From assembly GCA_944326235.1 (NCBI GenBank), contig CALVDH010000010.1:1-64000 (forward strand): 64,000 nt of DNA, read 5' to 3'. The notes under the pieces were generated by a model. It searched no databases. It saw only the letters and a list, made by a program, of their open reading frames with translations, and was not told the origin of the DNA. This DNA comes from an uncultured Bacteroidales bacterium. GTDB lineage: Bacteria; Bacteroidota; Bacteroidia; Bacteroidales; UBA932. The translations under genes and the position numbers were made by a program. Shown piece after piece: positions 1 through 47,107 of the stretch (the first letter of the stretch is position 1; the number at the start of each line of letters is the position of its first letter).

Positions 1-1170
1 TCCGCATCGGCATCCTGGAACATCCACAACGAGTCCTGGATGAAGGGTGCCTCCAGCTGGCTGAACATGCTGAAACTCCGTGCCAGCTACGGTGTAAACG
101 GTAACAACTCCATCGGAGCCTATCAGGCCTTCGGCGTATATGCCTCCACAGCCTACAACGGCGGTACTGGTATGCTGCCCAGCCGTCCTGAGAACGCAAA
201 CCTCTCCTGGGAGAAGAACAAGACCTGGAACGTCGGACTAGACTTCGGCTTCCTGAACAACCGCCTGAGCGGTACCGTCGAGTTCTATCAGCGTAACACC
301 ACCGACATGCTGCTGAGCAAGAGGGTTCCCGCCACTTCCGGTTTCACCTCCAACTTCATGAACATCGGTGCGCTGCAGAACACCGGAGTCGAGGTACAGA
401 TCGAGGGCGAGGCCATCCGCACCAATGACTGGTTGTGGACCATCGGCGTAAACGTGGCATGGAACAAGTCCAAGGTTCTCGACCTCGGTGACAACGAGTT
501 CCTGTCCTACAGCGGAGACTCCCGTCTGAGGCACATCGTAGGCCGCCAGTTCTTCACATACTATCTGCTCGACTACTACGGAGTGAACCCCTCCAACGGT
601 GAGGCTCTCTGGGTAGCTGAGGACGGCTCCATCACCAACGACTACAGCAAGGCCCGCTACTACGAGGCCGGCTCCCCCGAGCCCAAGCTCTTCGGAGGCT
701 TCAACACTACCGTATCCTGGAAGGGTCTCAGCCTGAGCGCCTTCTTCGAGTACAAGTGGGGCAATAAGGTATATCTCCTTGAGAACCGCTACTATACATC
801 CGACGGTAACCAGATGGGTACCAACCAGTCCATCTACGCCCTCGACTACTGGAAGAAGCCCGGCGACACCGGTACCAACCCCCGTCCCGTCGCAGGACAG
901 GCCACCAACTCCTACAGCTTCGGTTCCGACCGCTGGCTCGAGGACGGCAGCTACATCCGTCTGAAGGACATCACCCTGTCCTACCAGCTCCCTCAGAGTG
1001 CTGTTGAGAAGATCAAGCTTCAGGGTCTGAAATTCTATGTTTCCGGACAGAACCTCTACACCTTCCACGATGTATCCTACTGGGATCCCGAGAGAGGAGT
1101 TGACGGTATCGGCGCCGGTATCTACCCCATGACCAAGACCATCGTCGGCGGTATTGAAGTCACTTTCTAA
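1..1170 (+). CDS. SusC/RagA-type TonB-dependent outer membrane receptor, C-terminal part
   Basis: The frame is open from the first base, so the gene starts left of the window and only about 389 C-terminal residues are seen. They are barrel strands with the usual SusC landmarks: LKLRASYGVNGNNSIG, a WNVGLDFGFLNNRLSG strand, YWDPERG near the end and a terminal aromatic strand (GGIEVTF). Such proteins form the outer-membrane channel that, with a SusD lid, imports glycans or peptides using TonB energy. susD follows 16 bp later. No glycoside hydrolase is nearby but a secreted protease is, so a peptide or protein ligand (as for RagAB) is an inference. Plug, TonB box and signal peptide are outside the window. 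Confidence 0.95.
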   Translation, partial: SASASWNIHNESWMKGASSWLNMLKLRASYGVNGNNSIGAYQAFGVYASTAYNGGTGMLPSRPENANLSWEKNKTWNVGLDFGFLNNRLSGTVEFYQRNTTDMLLSKRVPATSGFTSNFMNIGALQNTGVEVQIEGEAIRTNDWLWTIGVNVAWNKSKVLDLGDNEFLSYSGDSRLRHIVGRQFFTYYLLDYYGVNPSNGEALWVAEDGSITNDYSKARYYEAGSPEPKLFGGFNTTVSWKGLSLSAFFEYKWGNKVYLLENRYYTSDGNQMGTNQSIYALDYWKKPGDTGTNPRPVAGQATNSYSFGSDRWLEDGSYIRLKDITLSYQLPQSAVEKIKLQGLKFYVSGQNLYTFHDVSYWDPERGVDGIGAGIYPMTKTIVGGIEVTF

Positions 1171-1186
1171 ACGTTAAAATGACAGA

Positions 1187-2743
1187 ATGATGAAAAAGAT
1201 ATTGATTATAAGCGCAATACTTTCAGTGCTCGCACTCACGGGCTGCAAGGACTTCCTCGTACAGGAGCCCGTCACCTCGCAGAGCTCCGAGCAGTTGCTC
1301 TCTGACTATACCGGTCTGAACAACGCCGTGGCCGGAGCCTACTCTCCCCTGGCGTCCACCAGCTGGTACGGAGCCACCTACTTCACCCTCGACGCCGACA
1401 CCCGCGCCGGCATCGCCGCATGGCCCAAGCTCTCCGACTTCCAGTCAGGACGTATGGCCACAGGCTTTACCCTCAACTACAATGACAACTCCACCTCCGG
1501 TCTCTGGAGCTTCGGCTACTACATCATCTCGGCCGCCAACAACGTTATCGACCAGCTCGACGCCATCGGCGAGACCCTGATAAACTCCAACGTAAGCCAG
1601 CAGGACCTGGACAACCTGAGAGCAGAGTGTCTCTTCCTCAGGGCCCTGTCCCACTTCGACCTGCTCCGCATCTACTCCAGGAACGACCAGCCTGAGCTCG
1701 GAGTGCCCGTAATCCTGCACACCGACCATACATCCACCGAGCAGCCCGCCAGGAACACCGTCCGTGAGGTCTATGACCAGATTGAGAAGGACCTTTTCCA
1801 GGCCGACTCACTGATGGCCGAGGGCTACAGCCGCAGCGGTGTGGCAGATGCCAACGCAGTGGCCAACAAGTATGTCATCAAGGCCCTCGCAGCCAGGGTG
1901 TACCTCTATGACGCCACCTTCACCAAGGGACTGGGTGAGAACGCAGCTGCCAAGTATCAGGCAGCCGCCGACTACGCTACAGAGGTAATCGAGAGCGGCA
2001 AATATAAGATGTGGACAGCCGAGGAGTATCCCTCTGTATGGCACAATGACGTAGGCAGCGGCGAGATCATCTTCGAGGTATACGGCAAGGCCTCCAACGG
2101 CTATGACGGATACTGGGAGGCAGCCTGCCACATGACCAACCCCAACGGATACGCCGACATCTGCGCATCTCCTTTTATCTATGACTCCTATGAGGACGGT
2201 GACGTCCGCGGAACCAAGGGCGTCCGCCAGGGTGTGGGTCCCAACGATGACGGCTCTATGTTCGTAACAGACCCCGACGGGGCTTCAGGCGACTACTGGA
2301 CCATGAAGTATCCCGGCAAGGGCGACGGCAACGTGACCGGTACTCCCGACGTGAACAACTGCCCGATCATCCGTCTCTCCGAGATGTATCTCATCAGGGC
2401 CGAGGCCATCGTCAACGGAGCCACCAGCACCAGCACTGCTGACGCAGACCTCAACACCATCAGAAGCAACCGCGGCGCTTCCAGCGAAGAGGCTTCCGAG
2501 CAGGCTATCTGGAACGAGTACAAGCTGGAGTTCTGCTTCGAGGGCCAGTTCTGGTTCACCACAGCCCGTCTCGCTACCACCAACCACAGCTGGGCAGTCA
2601 TTGAGTATAACGCAGACGAAGTGGTAAGAAGGAACAACCACTCCATACTGGATGCCTCTTCCATCTACTGGGCACTTCCTCTGAGCCGCTCCGAGATGGA
2701 CGTGAACAAGAACCTGGTACAGATGCCCGGTTACGAAAGGTAA
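1187..2743 (+). CDS. SusD/RagB family nutrient-binding outer membrane lipoprotein
   Basis: A 518-residue surface lipoprotein expected to sit as a lid on the SusC barrel encoded just upstream. A lipoprotein signal ends in LALTGC (Cys about residue 20). The N-terminal TPR-like helical part includes the family stretch ECLFLRALSHFDLLRIYS (about 147-164). The C-terminal part has the typical PIIRLSEMYLIRAEA segment (about 394-408), followed by NTIRSNRG and ALPLSRSEMDVNKNLVQMPGYER at the end. Length is normal for the family. Two ATG codons are in tandem; the first is used here. It is the second gene of a susC-susD-lipoprotein-lipoprotein operon. Confidence 0.95.
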   Translation: MMKKILIISAILSVLALTGCKDFLVQEPVTSQSSEQLLSDYTGLNNAVAGAYSPLASTSWYGATYFTLDADTRAGIAAWPKLSDFQSGRMATGFTLNYNDNSTSGLWSFGYYIISAANNVIDQLDAIGETLINSNVSQQDLDNLRAECLFLRALSHFDLLRIYSRNDQPELGVPVILHTDHTSTEQPARNTVREVYDQIEKDLFQADSLMAEGYSRSGVADANAVANKYVIKALAARVYLYDATFTKGLGENAAAKYQAAADYATEVIESGKYKMWTAEEYPSVWHNDVGSGEIIFEVYGKASNGYDGYWEAACHMTNPNGYADICASPFIYDSYEDGDVRGTKGVRQGVGPNDDGSMFVTDPDGASGDYWTMKYPGKGDGNVTGTPDVNNCPIIRLSEMYLIRAEAIVNGATSTSTADADLNTIRSNRGASSEEASEQAIWNEYKLEFCFEGQFWFTTARLATTNHSWAVIEYNADEVVRRNNHSILDASSIYWALPLSRSEMDVNKNLVQMPGYER

Positions 2744-2766
2744 TCAACTAAAAAATGACAACGACA

Positions 2767-3621
2767 ATGAAAAAGACACTTTTATATACTAGCATTATCG
2801 TCCTGGGAGCTCTGGCTGCGGCATCCTGCAACCTGAACAACTATCCCGTGTTCGACGACAACGACGCCTTCGTGGCGTTCGGCTCGACCACGGCCCAGTT
2901 CACAGAGCCCGCTGAACCCACTATCGTGGAGGTCAACGTAACCCTCGCATCCGTGGCCGGCATAGCCACTAATGTCAGCTATGAGGTACTGGACAGCACT
3001 GCCAAGGCCGGCGTGGACTACGAGCTGGTCGACGAGACCGGAGTCCTGCGCTTTGACGCAGAGAACCGCACCTGCCCTATCCAGATCAGGCTTCTCAATC
3101 CCAATTACGGAGAATACACCGGCAACAAGGTGTTCTCTATCAGACTCACCAGCACCGGTTCTGTAAATCTCGGAGCCGAGAAAACCTGCCTGGTGACTAT
3201 CGCCGACGCCGACCATCCTCTGGCACCGATCCTCGGTACATATCAGATGGAGGGAACCTCTTACTTCAATGGTCCCGCTTCATGGAACCTGACTATCGAG
3301 CGCGACCCTGACGGAGACGTAACCATGGTATGGTTCGAGAACCTCATGCCCGGCGGATACGGCGGATTCTACGGAACCGTTACATCCGAGAACAATATGC
3401 CCGTTCAGATCGACATACCTATCGGACAGGTATCTACCGGTACTCTCTATGGTATGGACGCCAACGGTGAGTACTACTACACCGCCGGCAGCATGCCCGT
3501 AGCAGTCACCAACGGTGGCAACACCATCACCTTCACGGAACTCGGACCTGCCCTCAATGCAGAAGGAACTTCGTTCTACGAGATTATCCTCGGAGGATGC
3601 TTCGGTAACAAAGTCCAGTAA
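2767..3621 (+). CDS. Surface lipoprotein with Calx-beta-like domain
   Basis: A predicted lipoprotein of about 284 residues: the signal ends in LAAASC, and the next residues are Asn-Leu-Asn-Asn. Residues about 40-150 look like a Calx-beta fold, with the characteristic run of AKAGVDYELVDETGVLRF, a middle strand and a closing CLVTIADAD. The C-terminal half (from ILGTYQMEG) resembles the beta-rich tail of accessory proteins in SusCD loci. The start chosen gives a normal n-region (MKKTLLY); an in-frame ATG 12 bp upstream (2755) is possible. The gene follows susD by about 20 bp, so it probably encodes an accessory ligand-binding or surface protein of the same uptake complex. The ligand is unknown. 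Confidence 0.8.
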   Translation: MKKTLLYTSIIVLGALAAASCNLNNYPVFDDNDAFVAFGSTTAQFTEPAEPTIVEVNVTLASVAGIATNVSYEVLDSTAKAGVDYELVDETGVLRFDAENRTCPIQIRLLNPNYGEYTGNKVFSIRLTSTGSVNLGAEKTCLVTIADADHPLAPILGTYQMEGTSYFNGPASWNLTIERDPDGDVTMVWFENLMPGGYGGFYGTVTSENNMPVQIDIPIGQVSTGTLYGMDANGEYYYTAGSMPVAVTNGGNTITFTELGPALNAEGTSFYEIILGGCFGNKVQ

Positions 3622-3649
3622 TTAACGTTAACTGAAAAATTAAAAGGAA

Positions 3650-5314
3650 ATGAAAAAATATCTTTTGACAATATCAGCGATTCTGATGCTGCTGGTCACC
3701 GGCTGTGAGATGTTTCCTCCCGATGACTCTCAGACACAGCCTGTAACTGTGGAGAAACCTGAGATCAGCGGAGTGTCGGCTGACGACACATCCATGACGG
3801 CTACTATCACTCCTGTCGCAGGTACCGGTTTCTACTCCTACGCAGTGATAGCCGGTCCCCGTCAGACCCTCGATCCCTCCACACTGCTGGGCCTCGGATA
3901 CAGCAATGCCGTAATCAGCGGTATCGCCAACTACGCCGAGCAGCAGTCCCTGACCATCTCCACCGACGGTCTCAGCCGCAACGTGATGTACTACATCTAC
4001 GCTGTAGCAGCCAGCGAGCAGGGTGTTCCCTCCGAGATAGAGGTGGACAGCGTGTACACTTCCAACAGCCTGACTCCCAACATCACAGGCTCGTTCTCCA
4101 TTGACACAGTGGGCGTAGTCTTCGCAGTTCCCTTCACTGAGAACGTACAGCTCAGCGGCAACGGTAACGTGTACGTGTCCTACTACAAGGTCAACGACCT
4201 CGCTGACTCAGTAAACACCAAGAAGCAGGTGGTTCCCGCAGACTCTCTCAGTGTTGAGGGCAATGTTCTCTATGTGGCCGTACCTGACAAGACCCCCGGT
4301 CTGTACATCACCCTCTCATGGGATGCAGGTATCCTGGTCAACAGCGCCGGAACTCCCAACCCCGCATGGACCAATGACGCCTACGGCAAGCAGAATCTCA
4401 AGATGCGCGCTGGCAGGGAGGCATGGAACCTCGGCTACGAACTGGTTCTGGACGCCGATGGCGACACTACCTATTTTGCAGGTGACGAGACATTCCTCTT
4501 CTCGGATTGGACTACATTTACAGCTGTATTCACACCTGAGAAAGAAATCGCTTACGATAACGGAACTGTAAGAGTAACCTACACCAGCGGCAACGGAGAC
4601 GTACTCAGTTATGACAACCAGTATTTCACTCTGAATGCAGACGGAAATGTAGTCGTTGCTCTTGACAGGGCTCCTTCCTACGGCGATGTGATTTCTTTCG
4701 CATTCCCCGCCGGACTGTTCCAGGATGTGTACGGCAACCCCAACGCAGCCTTTACCACCGAGCCTATCTATAACTACGCCTTCGATTATAAGGTGGAGGA
4801 CATAGAAGGTGTATACGAGGGAATAGGTCTGTCCTACTTCGACAACAATGCATATTATCTCAATTTTGACGACCCTATGAACGTCAATATTGAGATTGAG
4901 GTTGTAGAGGATGTTGACCTTGGAGAGGATTTCGACAACTTCAAAGCTAACGTAGTTGTCAAGAACCTGATGTTCACAGGCTCAGAGGTATACGGATATT
5001 TCGACACAACTGCCGGTACTATATCATTCCCTATTGGACAGTACATAGCCTCTAATGCTGACGGTTCCCAGAATTACTATTTTACAAGTGACCATTCTCC
5101 CGTAATTTGGAACATGCCGTCAAAGGGTAGTGTTGTATCACAGGATCTTTGGGGCTACCATGTGTATGATGCAGCCGGAAATGCTCTTGGATACTATGAT
5201 GCATTCTCAGTCACCCAGCTGACATTGCTCCAGGGAGGCGCACAGACCGCAAAGACTTCCGCCGCCCCTGTCCGCAAGCACGACCTCACAATCTCAGAAC
5301 TGCATACCCTGTAG
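3650..5314 (+). CDS. Surface lipoprotein, beta-rich, last gene of the first SusCD operon
   Basis: A 554-residue predicted lipoprotein with its lipobox at LLVTGC (Cys about 19), then an acidic linker and a fibronectin/Ig-like module (about 37-145). The middle holds further beta-sandwich-like segments, with DNGTVRVTYTSGNG and a 'DVYGNPNAAFT' type strand as in bacterial Ig-like (SusE/F-like or big-type) repeats. The tail (about 400-554) has no domain I recognise. The position, 28 bp after the Calx-beta lipoprotein gene and just before a terminator, makes it the last member of the uptake operon. A role in binding ligand at the surface is inferred from context only. Confidence 0.75.
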   Translation: MKKYLLTISAILMLLVTGCEMFPPDDSQTQPVTVEKPEISGVSADDTSMTATITPVAGTGFYSYAVIAGPRQTLDPSTLLGLGYSNAVISGIANYAEQQSLTISTDGLSRNVMYYIYAVAASEQGVPSEIEVDSVYTSNSLTPNITGSFSIDTVGVVFAVPFTENVQLSGNGNVYVSYYKVNDLADSVNTKKQVVPADSLSVEGNVLYVAVPDKTPGLYITLSWDAGILVNSAGTPNPAWTNDAYGKQNLKMRAGREAWNLGYELVLDADGDTTYFAGDETFLFSDWTTFTAVFTPEKEIAYDNGTVRVTYTSGNGDVLSYDNQYFTLNADGNVVVALDRAPSYGDVISFAFPAGLFQDVYGNPNAAFTTEPIYNYAFDYKVEDIEGVYEGIGLSYFDNNAYYLNFDDPMNVNIEIEVVEDVDLGEDFDNFKANVVVKNLMFTGSEVYGYFDTTAGTISFPIGQYIASNADGSQNYYFTSDHSPVIWNMPSKGSVVSQDLWGYHVYDAAGNALGYYDAFSVTQLTLLQGGAQTAKTSAAPVRKHDLTISELHTL

Positions 5315-5334
5315 TCCTGACCTAATAATCCAAA

Positions 5335-5367
5335 GGCTGCCCCGGCCCGTCTGAGGCAGCCTTTTTT
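5335..5367 (+). terminator. Rho-independent terminator after the first SusCD operon
   Basis: The 7-bp stem GGCTGCC/GGCAGCC (5335-5341 with 5355-5361) has a 13-nt loop and is followed by six T. It lies 20 bp after the stop of the last lipoprotein gene and 20 bp before the next start. Confidence 0.85.
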
Positions 5368-5387
5368 ATTATCTTAATAAAGAATTT

Positions 5388-6077
5388 ATGAAAACTAGAT
5401 TACTGACCCTTATCGCGGCGCTGCTGCTCGCCTCGGCCTCATGGCTGGGAGCGCAGCCCTACACGACGACCTGGCCTTACCTGTACTCCGACTTCCAGGA
5501 CGGGGTAATCTACATGACGGGCGGCCAGAAGATATACCACAAGCTGAACGTCCACCTGATGAAGGGACGCCTGCACTACCTGGACAACGACGTGGTGAAG
5601 GAGGCCTTCGCCGGCGATATCTTCTACGCTGAGATAGGCCCGGACTCCGACAAGTTCATGGTCGTGAACGGCGACATGATGAAGGTGGTGGCCGAGCAGC
5701 CCGGGGGCTTCGTGGCCGACCACATCACCGGTGACTTTGAGGCCCTCCTCACCGGCACCGGCGCCTACGGCATGCAGGCCAACACGGAGGCCATCCAGTC
5801 CTACTCCTCGCTGAACATTCAGGGTGCCGTGAACGTCAACCACATGCTGCTCCTCCAGGAGAAGCAGTCCGGCCAGGAGTTCGACCTCAAGCACCAGCTC
5901 TACATAGTAACCTCGGGCAAGGTCTGCCGCGCCGTCCGCAGGGACGTGGAGGCGCTGCTGGACAAGACTCAGAAGGCCCAGTTCAAGTCATACCTCAAGG
6001 AACACAAGGTGAAGTGGAAGGATCCACAGAGCCTGCTCCAGGTCGTGACGTTCCTGGACGAAGTCCTGCCCGATTAA
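5388..6077 (+). CDS. Secreted protein of unknown function
   Basis: I do not recognise this 229-residue protein. It has a clear cleavable signal peptide (hydrophobic residues 5-20, likely cut near SWLGA-QP). The mature part starts with aromatic residues (YTTTWPYLYSDF) followed by 'GVIYMTGGQKIYHKLNVHLMKGRLHYL', which reads like beta strands. The C-terminal 60 residues are charged and helical (AVRRDVEALLDKTQKAQFKSYLKEHKVKW). It is expected in the periplasm or on the surface. It starts just after a terminator and sits 22 bp before the protease gene, so the two may be co-transcribed. Function cannot be assigned from sequence. Confidence 0.75.
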   Translation: MKTRLLTLIAALLLASASWLGAQPYTTTWPYLYSDFQDGVIYMTGGQKIYHKLNVHLMKGRLHYLDNDVVKEAFAGDIFYAEIGPDSDKFMVVNGDMMKVVAEQPGGFVADHITGDFEALLTGTGAYGMQANTEAIQSYSSLNIQGAVNVNHMLLLQEKQSGQEFDLKHQLYIVTSGKVCRAVRRDVEALLDKTQKAQFKSYLKEHKVKWKDPQSLLQVVTFLDEVLPD

Positions 6078-6099
6078 TCCCATACATCAACACACCCAC

Positions 6100-8796
<2,697 letters not shown>

Positions 8797-8824: not shown

Positions 8825-8858
8825 ACGGCGGGCCCTGCTAAGGCCCGCCGTATTTTTT
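8825..8858 (+). terminator. Rho-independent terminator after the S8 protease gene
   Basis: A perfect 10-bp GC-rich stem (8825-8834 with 8842-8851, ACGGCGGGCC) with a 7-nt loop is followed by TATTTTTT. It insulates the downstream promoter at 8880 from read-through. Confidence 0.9.
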
Positions 8859-8879: not shown

Positions 8880-8909
8880 TTTGTTTTCTAATATTTTTAC
8901 GTATTTTCG
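8880..8909 (+). promoter_or_regulatory. Fixed promoter in front of the invertible SusC/SusD operon
   Basis: A TTTG -33 element (8880-8883) is followed, 18 bp later, by TATTTTCG (8902-8909), one mismatch from the Bacteroidales -7 consensus TAnnTTTG. The AT-rich stretch contrasts with its GC-rich surroundings. A transcript would start near 8915 and give a leader of about 80 nt to the ATG at 8997. The promoter lies outside the inverted repeats, so it would stay in place when the segment flips. Confidence 0.6.
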
Positions 8910-8996: not shown

Positions 8997-9098
8997 ATGA
9001 AAAAAATCAGACTTCTTCTGACCGGTCTGTTATCCGCGCTAACTGTCTCGCTATACGCGCAGGAAGTGCTGAGAATTAATACTCCAGTGATTCTTTAA
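8997..9098 (+). CDS. Orphan SusC signal-peptide start (5' exon-like stub of the invertible susC)
   Basis: The frame of 33 codons begins MKKIRLLLTGLLSALTVSLY and continues AQEV before running into unrelated sequence and a stop. The first 22 residues are a normal SusC signal peptide ending in an AXA-like site. The codons from TTA-TCC-GCG onward match, in the same frame, the start of the susC coding region on the opposite strand at 15,838. The stub therefore supplies the start codon and signal peptide only when the segment 9029-15839 is inverted. In the present orientation it would give only a short dead peptide. Confidence 0.85.
   Translation: MKKIRLLLTGLLSALTVSLYAQEVLRINTPVIL
9029..9064 (+). 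repeat. Left inverted repeat of the invertible segment
   Basis: The 36 bases pair with 15804-15839 read in reverse complement. There are 24 identical bases (GTTATCCGCGCTAACTGTCT plus CGCT), two mismatches, then 10 identical bases (ACGCGCAGGA), making 34 of 36. The match stops at both ends (T/A outside, A/C inside). It lies within codons 11-23 of the signal-peptide stub. Confidence 0.93.
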
Positions 9099-10380
9099 TT
9101 TCCACAGGGCCTTCCCATGTTCCAGTGAGGCTGTACTGGCCCTCCATCTGGAGGTTGAACTCAAAGGAGAAAGTATCCTCTCCTGTCTGACTGACGTCAA
9201 CTGTTCCTCCGGAGATGAATCCATATGTTTCTGAATAAGTTTCAGGATCTTCTATTATCAGAATTGAACCAGATTTTGTGAATAACATATCCATAAAGAA
9301 AGTTGCGTTTCCAAACTCTATAGTACCGGGCTCAAGTGTTCCGGTAACCATGTATCTGCCGGGAATCATCGCTCCATCAGTGTTTGCAGCCATGAAAGAC
9401 AGGGAAAGAGTAGTGTTGCCCTGGACAAAGTCTATGGCAAGATTACCTCCGTCCTCAAAACCGGTGTACCGCGCTTCTATAGATTCGGGAGTCAACGTCA
9501 TATCTTCGGTGACAGCGGAATAATTTCCATCGGGGCGAACCCAATCATCAGAAGGACTGTAATTTTTAAATGACTGAGGGCCATTGTAAACTACATGATG
9601 TGTCTCGCCTTCGATGGTGACTGTCAGTTCAAAATTCCAGTTGTCTCCGTCCTTGGTCACGACAAGTGTTCCTTCTTCAAAATCGTACGAAGTTCCGAGA
9701 CCCGAGAAATCGGTTTGCTTGAAACAACTGAGAGTAGTAAATGTTCCGTTTTCTTTTTTACTCTCCAGGTCAAATGTATAAGTTCCTTCTTGAACGAGAG
9801 CATTGGCTCCGTCCTCTGAAGTAGGCGCATAGAGATCAATAAGGTAATAGTTGCCTTCAGCCTCCATCATAACTTCGTCTATGAATCCTTTGTCAGACAG
9901 ATAAAAATAGTAATTTGCTGCGCCTGTTTTCTTTAGGTCGCCATAGTAGTACCCAGTGAAGACAGTAGCCGGGAACTCATGGTCATAAGCACTCTCGAAC
10001 CCTTCCTGAGCCACCACGACAGTCTCCTTGATGTAGTCGTACTGAATGGTGAGGGTGGTTTCGCGGGGCTGCTGGCCCTCGTTGGAGGCTACGTTGAAGG
10101 TAATCTTGCCCTCGGTGGCGAGGTCGATGTCGGTGATCCAGTCGATGCCCTCGGCTGCGGTTACCTGCATGGAAACACCTTCTACGGGATTCTTGAGGGT
10201 GTAGGTAATCTCACAGGGGCCGCCGGCTATGGCTACGTTGAGGGTGTCGGCCTCAGGAGAGGTGATGGTGAGTTCGGGGTTGCCGGTCTCCTCTTTCTCG
10301 GGCTTGTTGCAGGATGCGAGCATGAACACCGATGCCAGGGAAGCGGCAATCAGGGACAATTTGATAAAACTGCTTTTCAT
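9076..10380 (-). CDS. BACON-domain surface lipoprotein
   Basis: A 434-residue lipoprotein with a signal ending in FMLASC (Cys about 24). Residues about 38-130 form a BACON-type all-beta domain, recognisable from ITFNVASNEGQQPRETTLTI and the closing VVVAQEG. BACON domains occur in extracellular proteins of Bacteroidales and are thought to bind carbohydrate or mucin. The remaining 300 residues are repeated beta-rich segments (GYYYGDLKKTGAANYYFYLSD, TGFEDGGNLAIDF) that I cannot assign. It is the last gene of the invertible operon. In the ON orientation its stop would lie near 15,792, about 55 bp before the terminator. Confidence 0.85.
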   Translation of the reverse strand: MKSSFIKLSLIAASLASVFMLASCNKPEKEETGNPELTITSPEADTLNVAIAGGPCEITYTLKNPVEGVSMQVTAAEGIDWITDIDLATEGKITFNVASNEGQQPRETTLTIQYDYIKETVVVAQEGFESAYDHEFPATVFTGYYYGDLKKTGAANYYFYLSDKGFIDEVMMEAEGNYYLIDLYAPTSEDGANALVQEGTYTFDLESKKENGTFTTLSCFKQTDFSGLGTSYDFEEGTLVVTKDGDNWNFELTVTIEGETHHVVYNGPQSFKNYSPSDDWVRPDGNYSAVTEDMTLTPESIEARYTGFEDGGNLAIDFVQGNTTLSLSFMAANTDGAMIPGRYMVTGTLEPGTIEFGNATFFMDMLFTKSGSILIIEDPETYSETYGFISGGTVDVSQTGEDTFSFEFNLQMEGQYSLTGTWEGPVEIKESLEY

Positions 10381-10443
10381 GATGCTTTTGGTTTAATAAT
10401 TGGTTTGTAATAGTGTGTGTATGTAATATGTTTCTTTCAGTTA

Positions 10444-11328
10444 CTACATTCTTACCGCCACGTCTCCTTCGGCTATGAAGGAGTAGGCCGATACGCTGGA
10501 GCCGCTGACTTCTCCTGCCCAGAATCCATTACGGAAGATTATGCCTTCGTCAGTGAATTCCAGTATGGGCTCTCCGTTCTCAATCAGTCCCCCGGGACAG
10601 ATACCTACTGTCACGACACCGCCGGCGACAGGGGGAATCACCAGATTCTCCTGGTCAGTGGGGATGGTCATCGTATTGAGCTCCAGGATACCGTAAAGAC
10701 TGCGGCGGGTGGTGTTGGCTCCCTCGAGGTTGATGAACCAGTATTTGTTCGGGTCGCTCTCGTCGGGCAGGATGGTGAAGGTGTAGGGATCCGCGGTGCT
10801 GCCGTCAGCCAGGATGAACGAGGGGTCGATGGCGTACTGTCCCTCGATCTGGACCTTGTCGGGCTGAATCAGAGTTACGGTCGTAGAGGCATTGGCCCCG
10901 ACATATTCTCCCGAGAGGGCAAATGTCAGGCTGATGCTCAGGTAGTCCCTGTATCCGGGAATCTTGACCTCCAGAATCCCTTCGGGAAGGTTGTCCCCGT
11001 CCTCCGCCTCATCGTAGGCTCCGATGTATATCTCGTTGGAGGTTATGAGGATATGCTTGTTCTCCTCTACCGGTATCAGACTTCCGTCAGAGGCGGTTAT
11101 CTCGCCTGAGATGAATCTGACTACGGCCAGGGAGGATGTGGCGGACTGCTCCGTCATGCGGATGGGGATGTTGAGGTACTCGCTGGCCAGGTCAGCGGTG
11201 TCCAGGGTGCTGACGAACTCCACCGGAGTGCTGCCGGTGTGGACCGTGAAGTCCCGCTCGTAGGTGCTGCAGGCCCCCGCAAAGAGGGAGGCGGCAGCCA
11301 GTATGATGATTTTATCGGTTATTTTCAT
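10444..11328 (-). CDS. SusCD-associated lipoprotein (DUF4843-like)
   Basis: A 294-residue predicted lipoprotein: the lipobox is FAGACS and the mature protein starts STYERDFTVHTG. The first half reads like the N-terminal domain of DUF4843-type proteins found after susD genes (pattern VEFVSTLDTADLASEYLNIPIRM, then a central LSISLTFALSGEYVG). The second half has a conserved-looking NKYWFINLEGANTTRRSLYGIL block. It sits between susD (22 bp) and the BACON gene (63 bp) in the invertible operon. A role as an accessory surface protein of the importer is inferred from position. The family assignment is tentative. Confidence 0.75.
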   Translation of the reverse strand: MKITDKIIILAAASLFAGACSTYERDFTVHTGSTPVEFVSTLDTADLASEYLNIPIRMTEQSATSSLAVVRFISGEITASDGSLIPVEENKHILITSNEIYIGAYDEAEDGDNLPEGILEVKIPGYRDYLSISLTFALSGEYVGANASTTVTLIQPDKVQIEGQYAIDPSFILADGSTADPYTFTILPDESDPNKYWFINLEGANTTRRSLYGILELNTMTIPTDQENLVIPPVAGGVVTVGICPGGLIENGEPILEFTDEGIIFRNGFWAGEVSGSSVSAYSFIAEGDVAVRM

Positions 11329-11350
11329 TGTCCTTTTCCTGAAAAAATGA

Positions 11351-12868
11351 TTAATATCCTGAATTCTGCTGCCCCGCGATGTTGGGGTTGGCGTCTATCT
11401 CAGCCTGGGGGATGGGCCATACGAAACGGTCCTCCTGGGTTCCGCGGTAGAACTGCTCATTGGTTCCGGGGAGGTAGATGGCTCCGCTCTGCTGGGCGGC
11501 CCTGCGCTCTACGGGCTTGCCGAAACGCTTGAGGTCGTCGAGGTAGAAGCCCTCTCCCATCAGTTCGCGGATCCTCTCCTCGAGAATCTGGTTGAGCAGG
11601 GTCTCTCCGCTGTAGGTGGGAGCTGTATAGCCGGGGATGCGGTTGCTTCTCAGCGAGGTGAGCATCTCATTGGCAGGTCCCTCCTGGTTGCTGCGGGCGT
11701 ATGCCTCGGCCAGCAGCAGGTACATCTCGGCGATGCGGAAGGGCTTTACCTTGTGGATGTAGTTGGAGTTGCTGGCTCCGCGCTCGCGCAGGTCCGGGTT
11801 GCCGGGGAACTTGTTGAACAGGTACAGGTCGTACTTGGCGTTACCGGTCATGGTGATGGTGGCCTGGAGATACCAGCTGGTGAATCTCATGTCCTCTCCG
11901 AAGTCGCTGAAGAGGTCGATGACCCACTGCTCGGGAACGTAGTCAGGGGTGTAGATGCCTGTCAGGGCGTTGTATCCGGTGTAGTTGTAGGAATAGGAGG
12001 AAGGAAGGGCGTCCGGGTAGGCGGCGTCAAGCTGCAGGATGCACTCCTTTCCTGAGTCTACGCTCCAGATCTGGCGGAACTCGTCGGCACCGGCGGCCAG
12101 GGGGTACTCATCAATCAGAGGGGATGCCAGCGTGATGGCTGTCGTATAGTCGCCCATACTGAGGGCAACCCTGGCGCGGAGAGCGTCCACTGCATCCTCG
12201 GTAATCCAGATGCTGCCCACGCTGCCTCTGGTGGTTACGAGGGCGGAGGCGCTGTCGAGGTCCTGGATGATGTTGGCGTAGGTCTCCTGCAGGGTACCGC
12301 GCTGCATATAGGTGGTCTGGTCCGAGGAAGGAGAATATACCTTGCTGTAGGGGATACCGAAACTGTTCTCATTGCCCTTGTATGTCAGGCAGTAGCGCTC
12401 GGCCAGTCTGGAGTAGTACCAGGCGCGGAGGAAATAGGCCTCGCCGGTCCAGATGTCCAGTGTCTCGCTGTCCTCCTCGCTCCAGGTGCTTCTGTCCACC
12501 TTCGCGGCTCCGTCGATGAAGAAGTTGATGTTGGCTATGGCTGAGTAATAGTTGGCCCACATCGCGTCGGCGTCAGCGTCATCGGCTGTGAAAATCCAGT
12601 TGTACATGGCTCCGCCGCGGTTACCAAAAGAGGATGTGGCGTGGAAGAGGTCCGTCATGAGCTCAGGGCTGTAGGTGGTGGATCCTGCCGCGTTGGCCCG
12701 GAAGACGATGTAGAGACCGTCGCGCAGCCTGTCGGCATCCTCCATGGTCAGGAAGGCATTCTCGATACCGATGGTGCCCTCGGGGAACTTGTCCAGGCTG
12801 CAGGATGCGGCTGCTCCCAGCAGGGCTGCGGCTGCAATGGCTGTTAAAAGATGTATCTTTTTCTTCAT
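11351..12868 (-). CDS. SusD/RagB family outer membrane lipoprotein
   Basis: A 505-residue SusD homologue with a lipoprotein signal (AAASC, Cys about 23) followed by SLDKFPEGTIGIENAF. The TPR part contains GEAYFLRAWYYSRLAERY (about 149-166) and the C-terminal part KPFRIAEMYLLLAEAYAR, then LTSLRSNRIPG and a terminal IPQAEIDANPNIAGQQNSGY. Length is typical. It starts 21 bp after the susC stop and is co-oriented with susC inside the invertible segment, so it would be expressed or silenced together with its channel. Confidence 0.95.
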   Translation of the reverse strand: MKKKIHLLTAIAAAALLGAAASCSLDKFPEGTIGIENAFLTMEDADRLRDGLYIVFRANAAGSTTYSPELMTDLFHATSSFGNRGGAMYNWIFTADDADADAMWANYYSAIANINFFIDGAAKVDRSTWSEEDSETLDIWTGEAYFLRAWYYSRLAERYCLTYKGNENSFGIPYSKVYSPSSDQTTYMQRGTLQETYANIIQDLDSASALVTTRGSVGSIWITEDAVDALRARVALSMGDYTTAITLASPLIDEYPLAAGADEFRQIWSVDSGKECILQLDAAYPDALPSSYSYNYTGYNALTGIYTPDYVPEQWVIDLFSDFGEDMRFTSWYLQATITMTGNAKYDLYLFNKFPGNPDLRERGASNSNYIHKVKPFRIAEMYLLLAEAYARSNQEGPANEMLTSLRSNRIPGYTAPTYSGETLLNQILEERIRELMGEGFYLDDLKRFGKPVERRAAQQSGAIYLPGTNEQFYRGTQEDRFVWPIPQAEIDANPNIAGQQNSGY

Positions 12869-12889
12869 ATCTTGATGTCTTTTTGAAAG

Positions 12890-15839
12890 TTAGAATGTCA
12901 GTTCCACTCCGATGGTGAATTGTCTGGAGTTGGGGTAGACTCCGAGCTGGAGGTTGGTGTCCGCCTCAGGGTCATATCCGGAGTATTCCGTTACCGTGAA
13001 CAGGTTGCGTCCGATGGCGTAGACCCTGAAACCGCTGAGGAACTTGCTGCGCTCGATCAGCTGCTTGGGGAACTCGTAGGATATCTGCAGGTTCTTCAGG
13101 CGCAGGAACGAGGCATTCTCCAGCAGGGTATCGTCAAACTGTCTGGGGGAGTTGACACCCGGCACGTCGGTCACCTGTCCGGGCTCGGTCCAGATGTCCA
13201 GGAGGTCGGTCAGACCGTTGTAGCCGGTGGACACGAAGGTGGGGTCGGTGAGGAAGTAGCGGTCGTTGTTGATGGTCCACTTGCCGGCTACCCAGGAGAA
13301 ATCGGCTCCGACATACAGGCCCTTGTACTGGAAGTTGAGCTGTATACCGCCGGACCAGGGGGCAAATCTCTGCTTGCCGGTCATCACCGCGTATGCGTCG
13401 GAGAAGTTCTTGGTCTTATTGCCGTCGAGGTCATACCACATCTGCATACCGTCCCGGGGGTCCACACCGGCGGAGCGTACATAGAAGAACTCGCCGTAGG
13501 GGTAGCCCACCTGGTAGGAGATACCGGTGTTGGGCACGGTGTACTCGTCGCGGCCTCCGAAGAGGGCTGTGATCTCGTTGTGGTTGTAGTTGAAGTTGGT
13601 GCTGATGTTGAAGTAGACGTTCTGAGTCTGGATGATGTCGAAGCTCAGGTCCACGTCCACACCCCGGTTGAGCATGTCTCCGGCATTGCCCCATCCTCCG
13701 GTATGTCCGGTGATGTAGGAGTAGGGAATCTCCATGAGCAGGTCGCGGGTCATCTTGTTGTAGAACTCAACGCTCAGGTCCAGGAAGTTCCACAGACGGG
13801 CGCTCACGCCTATGTTGAGGTTCTCGACGGTCTCCCACGTCAGGTCGGGGTTGGAGGGGTTGGATATTCCCCAGCCGATGCCGCCGTCGTAGTTGCCGGA
13901 GTAGTTGCCTACGGTTCCGAGGGCGAGGTAGTGCCCGATACCGGAGTTACCGGTGGTTCCGTAGCTGGCCTTCAGGCGCAGGTCGTTGATCCAGTCCACT
14001 CCGTTGAGCCATTTCTCTCTCTTGACGTCCCACATCAGACCCACAGAGTAGAAGTTGGCATACTGGTTGTCGGCTCCGAAGAGGGAGGATCCGTCGATAC
14101 GCCATGAGGCATCGATGAAGTACCTCTCGTCGAAGTCGTAGGACAGACGGGCGAAATAGGAGTTGTAGGCAGTCTCCTCGCTGTAGTAGTCCGGAACGCT
14201 CACATTGGCCTGTGTGGCCTGCGAGATGAGGTCGTTGCGGTCGTCAGTCAGACCCGAGACGCTGACTCCGAACTGGCGCAGCTGGTCCAGGATGGCCTCC
14301 TGTCCTGCCAGGATGGTGAAGTGGTTGCGCTCCCATGCCGTGAACTTGTATTCCGCGGTATTGGTAAATGTGAACTGGTAGTATCTGCCGGTGCTCTCGG
14401 TCGCAGAGCCGGAGTCCCAGATTTCACCCTTGTAGGCCTTGGCCGAGGAGTTGTGGTAGAATCCTTCCAGAGCCTGCTGCGACCTGATGGTCAGGCCCTT
14501 TACCGGTGTCAGCTCGAGATAGGTGGCCGCGTTGAGACGGGCATAGCTGCTGGTGGAGGGCTGGAGGTCGTTGGCATAGAACGGGTTCCAGTAATTGATG
14601 GCACTCAGGAAGTGAGGCTCCTGGCTGTAGTCGATATACGGGTTGTTGGGGTCGTCGGTGTTGATATAGTAAGGTGTGGCCCAGGGCACGAGCATGTTGG
14701 CTGCATTGACAGGGTTCTGGATGGAGTTACGGAACTGGTCACCGGAGGTGTAGGGTCCTGTCTGGTAGTCCTGGTAGGTGAGGCCGATGTTGGCGCCCAG
14801 TTTCAGCCAGGAGTTAACCTTGGAGTTGATGTTGGTGCGGAGGTTGTAGCGGCCGAGCCTGGAGTCAGGCGCGATACCTGTCTGGTCAAATGCTCCCAGG
14901 GAGATATAGTAGTCAGTCTTGTCAGTAGCGCCGGAGAGAGTGATATCGGCGTTCCATACAGGGGCCGTCTCGTTGAATATGTATTTCAGCCAGTCAGTGT
15001 TGATGTTCAGATGCTGGGCCATGAGCATGTCGTCAGTCATCTGGAAATTGGGGTTGATCTTCTTGTTGAAGGTAAACCACTGCTCGCTGTTCATCAAGTC
15101 CATGTGATGGTCCACGATGGTGGAGATACCGTACTGGCCTCTGAGTACGAGGGTCGGTTTCTCCCCGCTGCGTCCTTTCTTGGTAGTGATGTACACCACT
15201 CCGTTGGCCGCTCTGGAACCGTAGATGGCGGTCGAGGAGGCGTCCTTCATGACGACGATATTCTCGATGTCGTTACTGTTGAGGCTGTTGAATATAGAAG
15301 CGGATACGGGCGCTCCGTCCAGCACGAAGAGGGGCGTGGAGGATGCGTTGATGGAGTTGACGCCGCGGAGCCTCATGCTAACCTCCGACATAGGCTCACC
15401 GGTAGACGAGAAAATCTGCAGACCGGAAACCTGTCCCTGGAGGGCGTCGCCGACATTGGCGGTGGGACGGTTCATCGTGACCTTGTTCTTGACGGTGGAC
15501 GCCGAGCCCACGACAGAAGAGATTTTCCTGGCAGTACCGTAGCCCACGACTATCACGTCGTCCAGGGTCTGCGCGTCCATCTCCAGCAGGATGTCGATGG
15601 TCGCCCGCCCGTTTACGGGTACAACCTGCGTAACATAGCCTAGAAAACTGATTTCCAGGACTCCGTCCGAGGGTACTGTGATAGAGTAGGCCCCCAAATC
15701 GTCAGTCATGGCGTACGTAGTGGTACTGCCCTGCAGCACTACGGTCGCTCCCGCCACTACCTCGCCGGTAGCAGCGTCAGTAACGGTACCCGCGACAGTG
15801 ATGTCCTGCGCGTGAAGCGAGACAGTTAGCGCGGATAAC
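12890..15839 (-). CDS. SusC/RagA-type TonB-dependent receptor, lacking its start (phase OFF)
   Basis: The coding region runs from TTA-TCC-GCG in the right inverted repeat (codon at 15838-15836) to a terminal barrel strand (FTIGVELTF). After the last signal-peptide codons (LHAQ) comes a carboxypeptidase-regulatory-like domain (ITVAGTVTDAATGEVVAGAT), then the TonB box and plug (DDVIVVGYGTARK, INSINASSTPLFVLDGAPV, MKDASSTAIYGSRAANGVV), then the barrel. No sensible start exists on this strand: upstream codons run through a terminator hairpin. Joined to the stub at 8997 by inversion, it would give 11 + 982 = 993 residues, a normal SusC length. There are no internal stops, so the gene looks intact but silent. 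Confidence 0.93.
15804..15839 (-). repeat. Right inverted repeat of the invertible segment
   Basis: It is the partner of 9029-9064, 34 of 36 bases identical in reverse complement. It encodes LSALTVSLHAQ on the minus strand, in the same frame as LSALTVSLYAQ in the left repeat. Beyond it (15840 onward) similarity to the left side ends. Confidence 0.93.
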
Positions 15840-15846
15840 TGACACG

Positions 15847-15882
15847 ATCCCGGCACCGTTCCGACGGCCTGCCGGGATTTTT
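15847..15882 (+). terminator. Fixed terminator at the right side of the invertible segment
   Basis: A 9-bp stem ATCCCGGCA/TGCCGGGAT (15847-15855 with 15870-15878) contains an inner CCG...CGG pairing and is followed by five T. It reads left to right and lies only 8 bp outside the right repeat. In the present orientation no plus-strand gene ends here. After inversion it would follow the BACON gene as the operon terminator. Confidence 0.85.
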
Positions 15883-15999
15883 CTACACATCCCCCCACCC
15901 TCCGGCACCTCCTCACTCCACCTCCTCCTCATCCTCAGCCTCTCTATCCCCACCAGCCAGCTTCACCCCCCTTTTCACCCACCTCCACAACGCATCCAT

Positions 16000-16039
16000 C
16001 CACAACGGCAGCAAATCCCGCAATTCCCTGCCGTTGCAG
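16000..16039 (+). repeat. 40-bp hairpin element, copy 1
   Basis: The left arm CCACAACGGCA and right arm TGCCGTTGCAG surround an 18-nt loop (16011-16028). The outermost bases of the right arm are imperfect. Confidence 0.75.
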
Positions 16040-16104
16040 AACTGCATTTCCCTCAGCATCCCTGCTACAGCCCTTCTGAGCAGCATTCCCCTTCCGTTTC
16101 CCTT

Positions 16105-16144
16105 CCACAACGGCACCAAATTCCGCGATTCTCTGCCGTTGTGG
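16105..16144 (+). repeat. 40-bp hairpin element, copy 2
   Basis: Perfect 11-bp arms CCACAACGGCA/TGCCGTTGTGG surround an 18-nt loop. Confidence 0.85.
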
Positions 16145-16439
16145 TAAGGCATTATCGTGCGTCAGTGGTCTGTGGCGCCGTCCTTTTCGCCGGCGATCTG
16201 CCGGTGGGCGGACGGGCTCCGTGCCGGTTCGTCCTGCGGTTCCCGTCTTTCCGTCCCCGCACGCCCTGCTATTGTAACCCCTTGATGGTCAGCTCAGAAC
16301 GACATAACTATGTGCTTTCGTCCGTTTTGAAAACTGACGCGTCCACGGCCACTTCCACAAAGTCTCAGGGTGTCAGGTAGTTCCTGAATCACCATGTGCG
16401 CACTATTCATTTTCGTTCTCTTGCCGACGCGGAGTGAAA

Positions 16440-16479
16440 CCGCAACGGCAGCAAATCCCGCAATTCCCTGCCGTTGCGG
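16440..16479 (+). repeat. 40-bp hairpin element, copy 3
   Basis: Perfect 11-bp arms CCGCAACGGCA/TGCCGTTGCGG surround an 18-nt loop nearly identical to that of copy 1. Confidence 0.85.
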
Positions 16480-16866
16480 CATGAGGCAGGTCGGTTCATA
16501 ACGAATTCGAGAAGGTGGTGGAGATAAGCCGTTTCAGCCGGCACCTTCCGGATGGGAATCCGAGGCTGGCCAGGCGAAAAGAAAGTCGGAGTGGGTGACC
16601 GATCAACGAAATCAAGAAGGTGCCGACTATACAGCGGGAGGTGTTTCTGAGGCCAGTCGACCAATAACGTCATCTGTGCACCTTCAGAAGGCGGGACGGG
16701 CACGGTGGAGGGAGAAACGCAGCTGCAGCAGGCTCTCGTGGGGGGTTACGCTTCTACGCACCTTCAGAGGGTGTGCAGAAAACGCGGTAAAACTGCACAC
16801 CTTAGGAAGGTGGAACAGGTGTAACTCCTTCGGAAGGAGTGGGGAAAACGTGCGGATTAGAACGGA

Positions 16867-23200: not shown

Positions 23201-23252
23201 AAAAAATAATAAACACGCCCTACATGATTATCCGCGAACTTACCCTGACTTT

Positions 23253-23292
23253 CCGCAACGGCAGTGAATCGCACGTTTTGCTGCCGTTGTGG
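23253..23292 (-). repeat. 40-bp hairpin element, copy 4
   Basis: CCGCAACGGCA/TGCCGTTGTGG arms surround an 18-nt loop. Read on the minus strand, the loop (GCAAAACGTGCGATTCAC) resembles those of copies 1-3, so this copy is reversed. It sits in the 311-bp gap 23179-23489 between a promoter and the gdhA terminator; nothing else is evident there. Confidence 0.8.
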
Positions 23293-23324
23293 AATGACAA
23301 TAAGCAGCAAGCGCCACAGTGAAA

Positions 23325-46014: not shown

Positions 46015-47107
46015 ATGATTACCACAGAACAGGTGAGAGACTTGCGTCAGCGTATCGATACGCTGGGGAGGTGTCTTTGACATCGCTGCGAAGAAGGAGC
46101 AGGTAGCTCAGATGCAGCAGCACAGTGCCGGGCCCGGATTCTGGGACGACCCGAAGGAGGCCGAGGCATTTCTTAAGAAAATGTCGGGCGTGAAATTCTG
46201 GACCGACGCCTACGATGAACTCAGGAAAATGGACGAGGACCTGGAGGTTCTCCTGGAATTTGCCCGGGAGGACGAGTCCGCCCAGCAGGACGCCGACGCC
46301 CAGTTCGAAGCCCTCACCGGGAAGGTCGAGGACCTGGAACTGCGCAATATGCTCGGCGAGGAAGGGGACAATCTCGGGGCCATCCTCAAGATCAATTCCG
46401 GAGCCGGCGGCACCGAGAGCAACGACTGGTCGGCCATGCTCATGCGCATGTACGTCCGCTGGGGCGAGCGCAACGGCTACAAGGTGGCTGTCAGCGACCT
46501 CATCGAGGGGGACGAGGCCGGCATCAAGTCGGTGACCATCGAGTTCGAGGGAGACTACGCCTTCGGCTACCTCAAGGGCGAGAGCGGAGTACACCGCCTG
46601 GTGCGCATCTCCCCGTTCAATGCCCAGGGCAAGCGGCAGACGACATTCTCCTCCGTCTTCGTCTACCCTCTCGTGGACGACACCATCGAGATAGAAATCA
46701 ACCCGGCCGACCTCGAGTGGGACACCTACCGCTCGTCAGGAGCCGGCGGCCAGAACGTCAACAAGGTCGAGACCGGCGTCCGCGTGCGCCACATCCCCAC
46801 CGGCATAGTGGTCGAGAATACCGAGACCCGCTCCCAGCTCGACAACAGGCAGCGGGCCCTCCGCATCCTCAAGTCGCACCTCTACGACCTGGAACTCAAG
46901 AAACGCCAGGAGAAACAGGCAGAGCTCGAAGGCAAGAAAAAGAAAATCGAATGGGGCTCCCAGATACGCAGCTACGTCCTGCACCCCTACAAGATGGTAA
47001 AAGACCTGCGTACCGGATATGAGACTTCCGATACGCAGGGCGTTCTCGACGGAGACCTCAACGCCTTCATGAAGTCCTTCCTCATGGAAGCCGGCTCCGC
47101 TTCGTAA
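46015..47107 (+). CDS. prfB: Peptide chain release factor 2 with programmed +1 frameshift
   Basis: RF2 releases peptides at UGA and UAA. The first frame starts MITTEQVRDLRQRIDTL and stops at TGA 46078-46080. The slip site CTT-TGA-C is preceded by a GGGGAGG pairing sequence, the standard prfB arrangement. After a +1 shift the frame continues DIAAKKEQVAQMQQ and encodes 363 residues in all. Gly-Gly-Gln 244-246 (SSGAGGQNVNKVETG) is the catalytic motif. Frameshifting is expected to be autoregulated by RF2 level. The segment is therefore one gene, although no single open frame spans it. Confidence 0.97.
46069..46081 (+). promoter_or_regulatory. Programmed +1 ribosomal frameshift site in prfB
   Basis: AGGTGTCTTTGAC: the ribosome pauses at the in-frame TGA (46078) and slips from CTT to TTT, then reads GAC (46079). 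The purine-rich GGGGAGG just upstream (about 46064-46070) acts as the internal pairing element. Confidence 0.95.

Follow-up and report, generated by a model that had tools for sequence, protein, structure and literature searches.

A SusC/SusD operon that very probably switches by inversion between dyads in signal-peptide codons in a relative of Candidatus Coprenecus

Surface proteins are switched by DNA inversion in several Bacteroidales. The closest described system is the RagA/SusC shufflon of Bacteroides fragilis, known from Region EE of strain NCTC 9343 and from the Tsr0667-controlled clusters of strain YCH46; the two reports describe repeats at the ragA/susC start and large susC/susD segments that invert to a fixed expression site (PMC5729914, PMC4747536). 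A second kind is formed by the invertible promoters of capsule and S-layer operons, which carry GTTAC-N7-GTAAC repeats, with a promoter of roughly 290 bp flipping in Bacteroides xylanisolvens (PMC12118408). Here we describe a susC/susD locus in an uncultured relative of Candidatus Coprenecus, which NCBI places in Rikenellaceae. The locus lies in a 64,000-nt stretch (positions 1 to 64,000 of contig CALVDH010000010.1, assembly GCA_944326235.1), which as a whole is called the window. We consider it very probable that a 6.8-kb segment of the window inverts by site-specific recombination between two dyads in signal-peptide codons, and that it lies here in the OFF orientation.

As in the B. fragilis shufflon, the susC/susD pair lies inside the inverted segment, and inverted repeats at the susC start would join the SusC body to a fixed expression site. 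In B. fragilis, however, several cassettes compete for one site, whereas the window has one cassette, ON or OFF; set against a minimum of two alternative cassettes, one was found in the window and three at the homologous locus of two relatives (G013 and G017). In addition, the B. fragilis repeats overlap the susC start codon, whereas the crossover in the window falls 11 codons inside the signal peptide. With the invertible promoters the locus shares a palindromic GTTAC...GTAAC-type core in inverted repeats and the switching of surface operons, but the spacer is 7 there and 5 here, and there the promoter flips whereas here the genes would flip and the leader would stay. The leader and its predicted promoter indeed lie outside the inverted segment, left of the exact core, and GTTAC-N7-GTAAC has 0 matches in the window. 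The dyad also differs from the site of Tsr0667, whose consensus is reportedly AGTYYYN4GDACT; no match to it was found in the arms, and its one match in the window is at 46542 (0.44 expected by chance).

The segment is bounded by inverted arms of 40 nt each (9025..9064, plus strand; 15804..15843, minus strand), which are identical at 37/40 positions and contain an exact core of 24 bp. The first-pass annotation, made from the letters of the window, had reported 36-bp repeats with 34 identities; these are present, and the pair (left repeat 9029-9064) is a subset of the longer arms. With arms more than 200 bp apart, exact inverted matches reach 24 bp in the window, whereas the longest in each of 20 Markov-sampled control windows measures 14-17 bp. 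In the organism's own 2.47-Mb genome (G000) there are exactly two copies of the core 22-mer, and, allowing up to three mismatches, there is none in any of 98 other genomes. A pattern search placed the dyad GTTAT-CCGCG-CTAAC at 9029..9043 (plus strand) and 15825..15839 (minus strand); both matches are in the arms and are the only two in the window, where 0.15 would be expected by chance. In its general form, GTTAY-N5-STAAC, this 15-bp dyad sits inside the signal-peptide codons at the leader junction and is likely the recombination core.

Between the arms are four genes, all on the minus strand, as the first-pass annotation had stated and as gene frames and domain matches agree: susC/ragA, susD/ragB and two lipoprotein genes. 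The SusC/RagA body (12890..15838, 982 codons) matches TIGR04056 at 722.9 bits (curated cut-off 368.25), full-length from protein residue 13. Its open frame spans 15916 to 12890, and no ATG precedes the body; the earlier claim that susC has no start of its own holds in this sense, though GTG codons exist upstream. The start codon and first part of a signal peptide are found instead outside the segment, on its left side (8997..9098, plus strand), as was also claimed. Translation from the ATG at 8997 begins MKKIRLLLTGL, and these 11 codons precede the crossover. In the present orientation the leader frame reads MKKIRLLLTGLLSALTVSLYAQEVLRINTPVIL*, that is, 33 aa running through the left arm to a dead end. 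In the OFF state, the fixed leader would thus be read into this dead end while the SusC body has no ATG, and OFF cells would be without the receptor. Inversion at the two arms would give the ON form, in which the body is fused in frame to the leader's 11 codons, so that the SusC has 993 aa and its signal peptide is complete.

When the inversion was made in silico at the shared core, leader and body came into frame as a protein of 993 aa, and this product was sought among 5.8 billion proteins. P0003 (993 aa) equals it at 991/993 residues, including all 11 leader residues, so that leader and body, 6.8 kb apart in the window, are fused in a recorded protein. The two differences, T267A and A424S, show that P0003 comes from another strain than the window. 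P0003 represents a cluster of 83 sequences on 14 contigs. The OFF junctions are observed in the window and the ON junction at protein level; because P0003 joins the window's leader to the window's SusC body, we read the window as carrying, in its OFF form, a gene recorded elsewhere in the ON form; the orientation and the joining are those that the first-pass annotation had predicted. The nearest other SusC among the matches listed, P0004, is 86% identical, lies on a 225-kb contig and is predicted leaderless, which suggests that a close relative may likewise be OFF or silent. Among the best 61 of 120 SusC-body matches listed (P0003-P0063), 38 have a leader and 23 have none; this count was not used as a test, as some of the 23 leaderless forms are truncated predictions.

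Opposite orientations in related genomes had been proposed as a check, and they were found. G013 and G017 are sister genomes, each with three SusC bodies near a gene for an H+-pyrophosphatase (H+-PPase), one leadered and two leaderless. To the left of the locus the two genomes are collinear at 98%, whereas the stretch between the leader and the H+-PPase gene has opposite orientations in the two, its halves being 97.8% and 88% identical. Because of this inversion, the SusC joined to the leader in G013 is leaderless in G017, and vice versa. From 600 bp into the alignment onward, the leadered body of G013 and a leaderless body of G017 are 95-99% identical, compared with 66-95% for G013 leaderless against G017 leadered and 55-86% for the two leadered bodies. 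On this sequence comparison, the locus of the two sisters is best described as a three-cassette shufflon caught in opposite orientations. In G016 two divergent bodies flank one leader, 1.46 kb apart. In G003, the leader contig C17 and a contig that ends behind another gene (C84) share an identical 130 bp from the site onward, which is expected of two upstream contexts leading into one body and equally of two bodies with identical starts.

A total of 19 genus genomes were searched (a genome search placed G005, G006 and G015 in the genus of the window), and the 14 with a match to the body start, the own genome included, were counted (23 matches); G001, G004, G007, G009 and G018 had no such match and were left out, G001 (L034) and G004 (L033) having leadered bodies without the dyad. 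The dyad is at the leader junction in 5/5 genomes with leaderless partners (G000, G003, G013, G016 and G017) and in 1/9 without them (Fisher p 0.003). The single case is G005, whose contig ends inside the body and which was counted as without a partner. The first-pass annotation had held that the switch would be refuted by related strains with differing repeats and a susC that begins with a start of its own. Such a state does occur, in 8/14 genomes, but all eight lack the dyad, and for this reason they do not refute switching in the window.

The same dyad is found at a second locus of the own genome. With a spacer of 5-7, the pattern gives 11 matches at nine places. Besides the window pair, these include an inverted pair on contig C1 and one place at the end of contig C57; the remaining four lie elsewhere. 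The C1 dyads are 6.5 kb apart in arms of 26 bp, 25 of them identical (L126 6636-13169; G000:C1:46635-53168), and lie inside the codons VMQSNGQ, which a leucine-rich-repeat (LRR) lipoprotein gene shares with a headless LRR frame on the other strand; a predicted AAA-ATPase/PDDEXK_9 gene is between the arms. An in-silico swap of the C-terminal parts gives a protein of 1,304 aa, which P0123 matches at 99.0% over its full length, and the headless form is also on record (P0125, 94%, beginning MQSNGQ). As both the window SusC locus and the C1 LRR locus carry dyads and have their swapped products recorded, this genome appears to have at least two switching loci marked by intragenic dyads, each in a different gene family. 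Contigs C57 (L127) and C31 (L129) end or begin at most 1 base from such sites, at leaderless SusC bodies, which hints that orientations were mixed in the population that was assembled. Since the C57 body is recorded with a different leader (MKKIRLFLTGL; P0132, 99%), a second leader probably exists that is missing from this assembly.

These contig breaks, and the draft state of the genome (63 contigs), speak for the OFF orientation being an artefact of assembly at the repeat. We regard this as extremely improbable: the exact repeat is only 24 bp, which is below usual assembly word lengths, the contig is continuous through both junctions, and C1 shows the same with a repeat of 26 bp. It is also very unlikely, in our view, that the inversion was a single event in the lineage, by homologous or illegitimate recombination, which left the operon stranded. 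Such an event would agree with the 8/14 genus genomes in which the body is leadered and no partner was found, and with the fact that no reversal has been seen within one strain. But the shared homology is only 40 nt (24 exact), which is short for homologous recombination, all four operon frames are open, and the C1 locus shows both forms with the same dyad. Moreover, the ON form is 991/993 identical, so the inversion must be very recent or recurrent. Site-specific recombination seems likelier than homologous recombination because the homology comprises only 40 nt at the window and 26 at C1.

A further explanation is that we see here one arm of a larger shufflon, that the assembly lacks its other cassettes, and that the leader serves other SusC bodies as well. 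The three bodies with one leader in G013 and G017 point in this direction, and in G000, which is 94% complete, one leader was found for three bodies of this N-terminal type, none of them leader-attached in the assembly and two cut at contig ends. Against it, a continuous stretch with one body runs from the leader to the H+-PPase gene in the window, the C57 body is recorded with its different leader, and at E <= 1e-100 the window's SusC has a single match in G000. On balance we hold the larger shufflon to be rather unlikely, if still worth bearing in mind. We think that the locus descends from a shufflon and, having lost its other cassette, now acts as an ON/OFF switch, because the final part of a SusC signal peptide (...LYAQE) is still encoded in the left arm. 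The H+-PPase gene to the right of the window's operon is near SusC in 8/14 loci examined, and in 6/12 loci with a single SusC of this kind; its position varies: some loci have it on the leader side, others on the far side.

One recombinase acting in trans may flip the segment. Seven matches to PF00589 were found in the own genome, of which six exceed the cut-off, along with one serine recombinase. The best candidate to act on the dyad is a 422-aa enzyme on contig C3, followed by a frame that we take to be a UpxY-like antiterminator. Its family is present in 6/6 dyad genomes at >=41% identity, some matches being partial or with a stop, and in G003 (86% complete) no other non-Xer tyrosine recombinase was found. 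As a discriminating recombinase the family was rejected, since its presence pattern does not separate dyad from non-dyad genomes. The C8 and C47 recombinases have 75-77% orthologues in both G013 and G017 and are presumably the housekeeping XerD/XerC. Near the recombinases on C3, C5, C20, C61 and C7, only hairpins and weak pairs were found and no arms of the 24-26-bp type, the distant-arm pairs beside them being 70-88% complementary. Short palindromic repeats and weak pairs lie near the serine recombinase. Serine recombinases occur in 15/19 genus genomes, including 7/8 without the dyad. Several inverted copies of GAGAAGGTGCCG...CGGCACCTTCTC were observed on G000:C13 (L098 659-910), near the serine recombinase.

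Several points weigh against the switch as described here. Reversibility within one culture is so far a prediction. The window's contig carries no match to a tyrosine or serine recombinase, and no such enzyme is tied to the dyad; the C3 family is also in 4/8 non-dyad genomes at >=39% identity. The P0003 cluster is known from its representative protein alone, not from a contig or arms, and its source is shown as '-', the mark for window-encoded proteins; to the latter it can be answered that the window keeps leader and body separate and that P0003 has two residue differences. The sites had been seen before the dyad was defined, and the genomes compared are related. The partner-body probe stems from a dyad genome and might overlook diverged partners, and several partner sites are imperfect dyads, including both silent sites of G013 and of G017. 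As the first 200 bp of four G013/G017 bodies are 96-100% alike, homologous recombination is possible at that locus. Genome-wide the dyad is not enriched (11 matches compared with 51 for the reversed control), and the predicted promoter is only a loose consensus match.

This promoter had been placed by the first-pass annotation at 8880..8909 (plus strand). There, TTTG-N18-TATTTTCG loosely matches the Bacteroidota promoter consensus, but a sigma-70-type promoter scan gave nothing at these positions, and the loose motif was absent within 160 bp upstream of the leaders in 11 relatives. A terminator-like hairpin behind the upstream subtilase gene (8825..8851, plus strand; 10-pair stem, then a T run; fold z -4.59) would insulate the leader from that gene. 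Another, with a T run, is just outside the right arm (15846..15879, plus strand; fold -21.9 kcal/mol, z -5.16); 0/200 shuffles give an equally good fold, and it is missing from the terminator-scan list. In the ON orientation, the operon would run from the leader's predicted promoter to this second hairpin, where its transcript would end. In relatives, a hairpin-like element upstream of the SusC leader is conserved (L211 at about 4088-4162; same place in L084, L169 and L171), reading AAGCTGAC...CCCCTGAATGTAGG...GCCGGTGC with a T run after it in 3/4. It was not seen before the window's leader, and a search of the four relatives' loci against Rfam gave no match. The window likewise gave no match to Rfam families, and no tRNA genes were found in it.

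The operon may encode an outer-membrane importer, perhaps for peptides. By sequence, the nearest solved structures are RagA for SusC (E 8e-191) and RagB for the SusD/RagB homologue (11351..12868; PF07980, PF14322), both from Porphyromonas gingivalis, and no recognised enzyme (Pfam/NCBIfam) is among the four genes; it is on these two grounds that we infer an importer. RagAB of P. gingivalis is a peptide importer, and we know of no ragAB inversion. The nutrient receptor of the first-pass annotation was an inferred function, and RagA/RagB are the nearest solved relatives that bear on it. The third gene (10444..11328) encodes a lipoprotein of no known family (no Pfam/NCBIfam match), homologues of which come after susD in relatives, and the last (9076..10380) a BACON-like lipoprotein that just missed the cut-off of PF13004 (24.9 bits, cut-off 25). 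Compared with L010, SusC has dN 0.19 and dS 1.11; it appears to be shaped by purifying selection, which fits a gene expressed during much of its history. To the left of the switch (40-8796) lies a SusC/SusD/Calx-beta/subtilase cluster with a second copy on C57 (L127), in which 4/6 genes are 76-96% identical and the remaining two 48% and 36%. To the right are four palindromic repeats CAACGGCA...TGCCGTTG (15996-16048, 16101-16153, 16436-16488 and 23249-23301).

The first-pass annotation had noted SusC/SusD inversion in B. fragilis but had not seen a whole-operon switch with the crossover inside signal-peptide codons described for this kind of locus. The novelty is narrower than this: SusC/SusD inversion at the susC start is already known in B. 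fragilis; what is new is the single-cassette ON/OFF form, the dyad site and its reuse in another gene family. No literature joining SusC, SusD, DNA inversion and signal peptide was found, with overlap possible with the Tsr0667 paper, a gene-altering-inversion catalogue and a Nature 2024 paper on intragenic inversion, and Coprenecus is not named in inversion literature among the papers listed. We give even odds to a broader proposal, namely that the dyad is a portable, codon-compatible, genome-wide mark for cutting and rejoining within reading frames, that one recombinase in trans would read both the SusC and the LRR sites so that N-terminal export parts are shared, and that, where a single body is left, an ON/OFF operon switch would result.

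The finding suggests that a single kind of locus can take two forms, the multi-cassette SusC shufflon and the plain ON/OFF switch, and it provides an exact site to look for in other genomes. The dyad in an unrelated lipoprotein gene suggests that one recombinase controls several surface proteins via intragenic sites, which would escape scans for promoter inversion. All-or-none display of the importer may affect the interactions of gut Rikenellaceae with phages, antibodies and nutrients.

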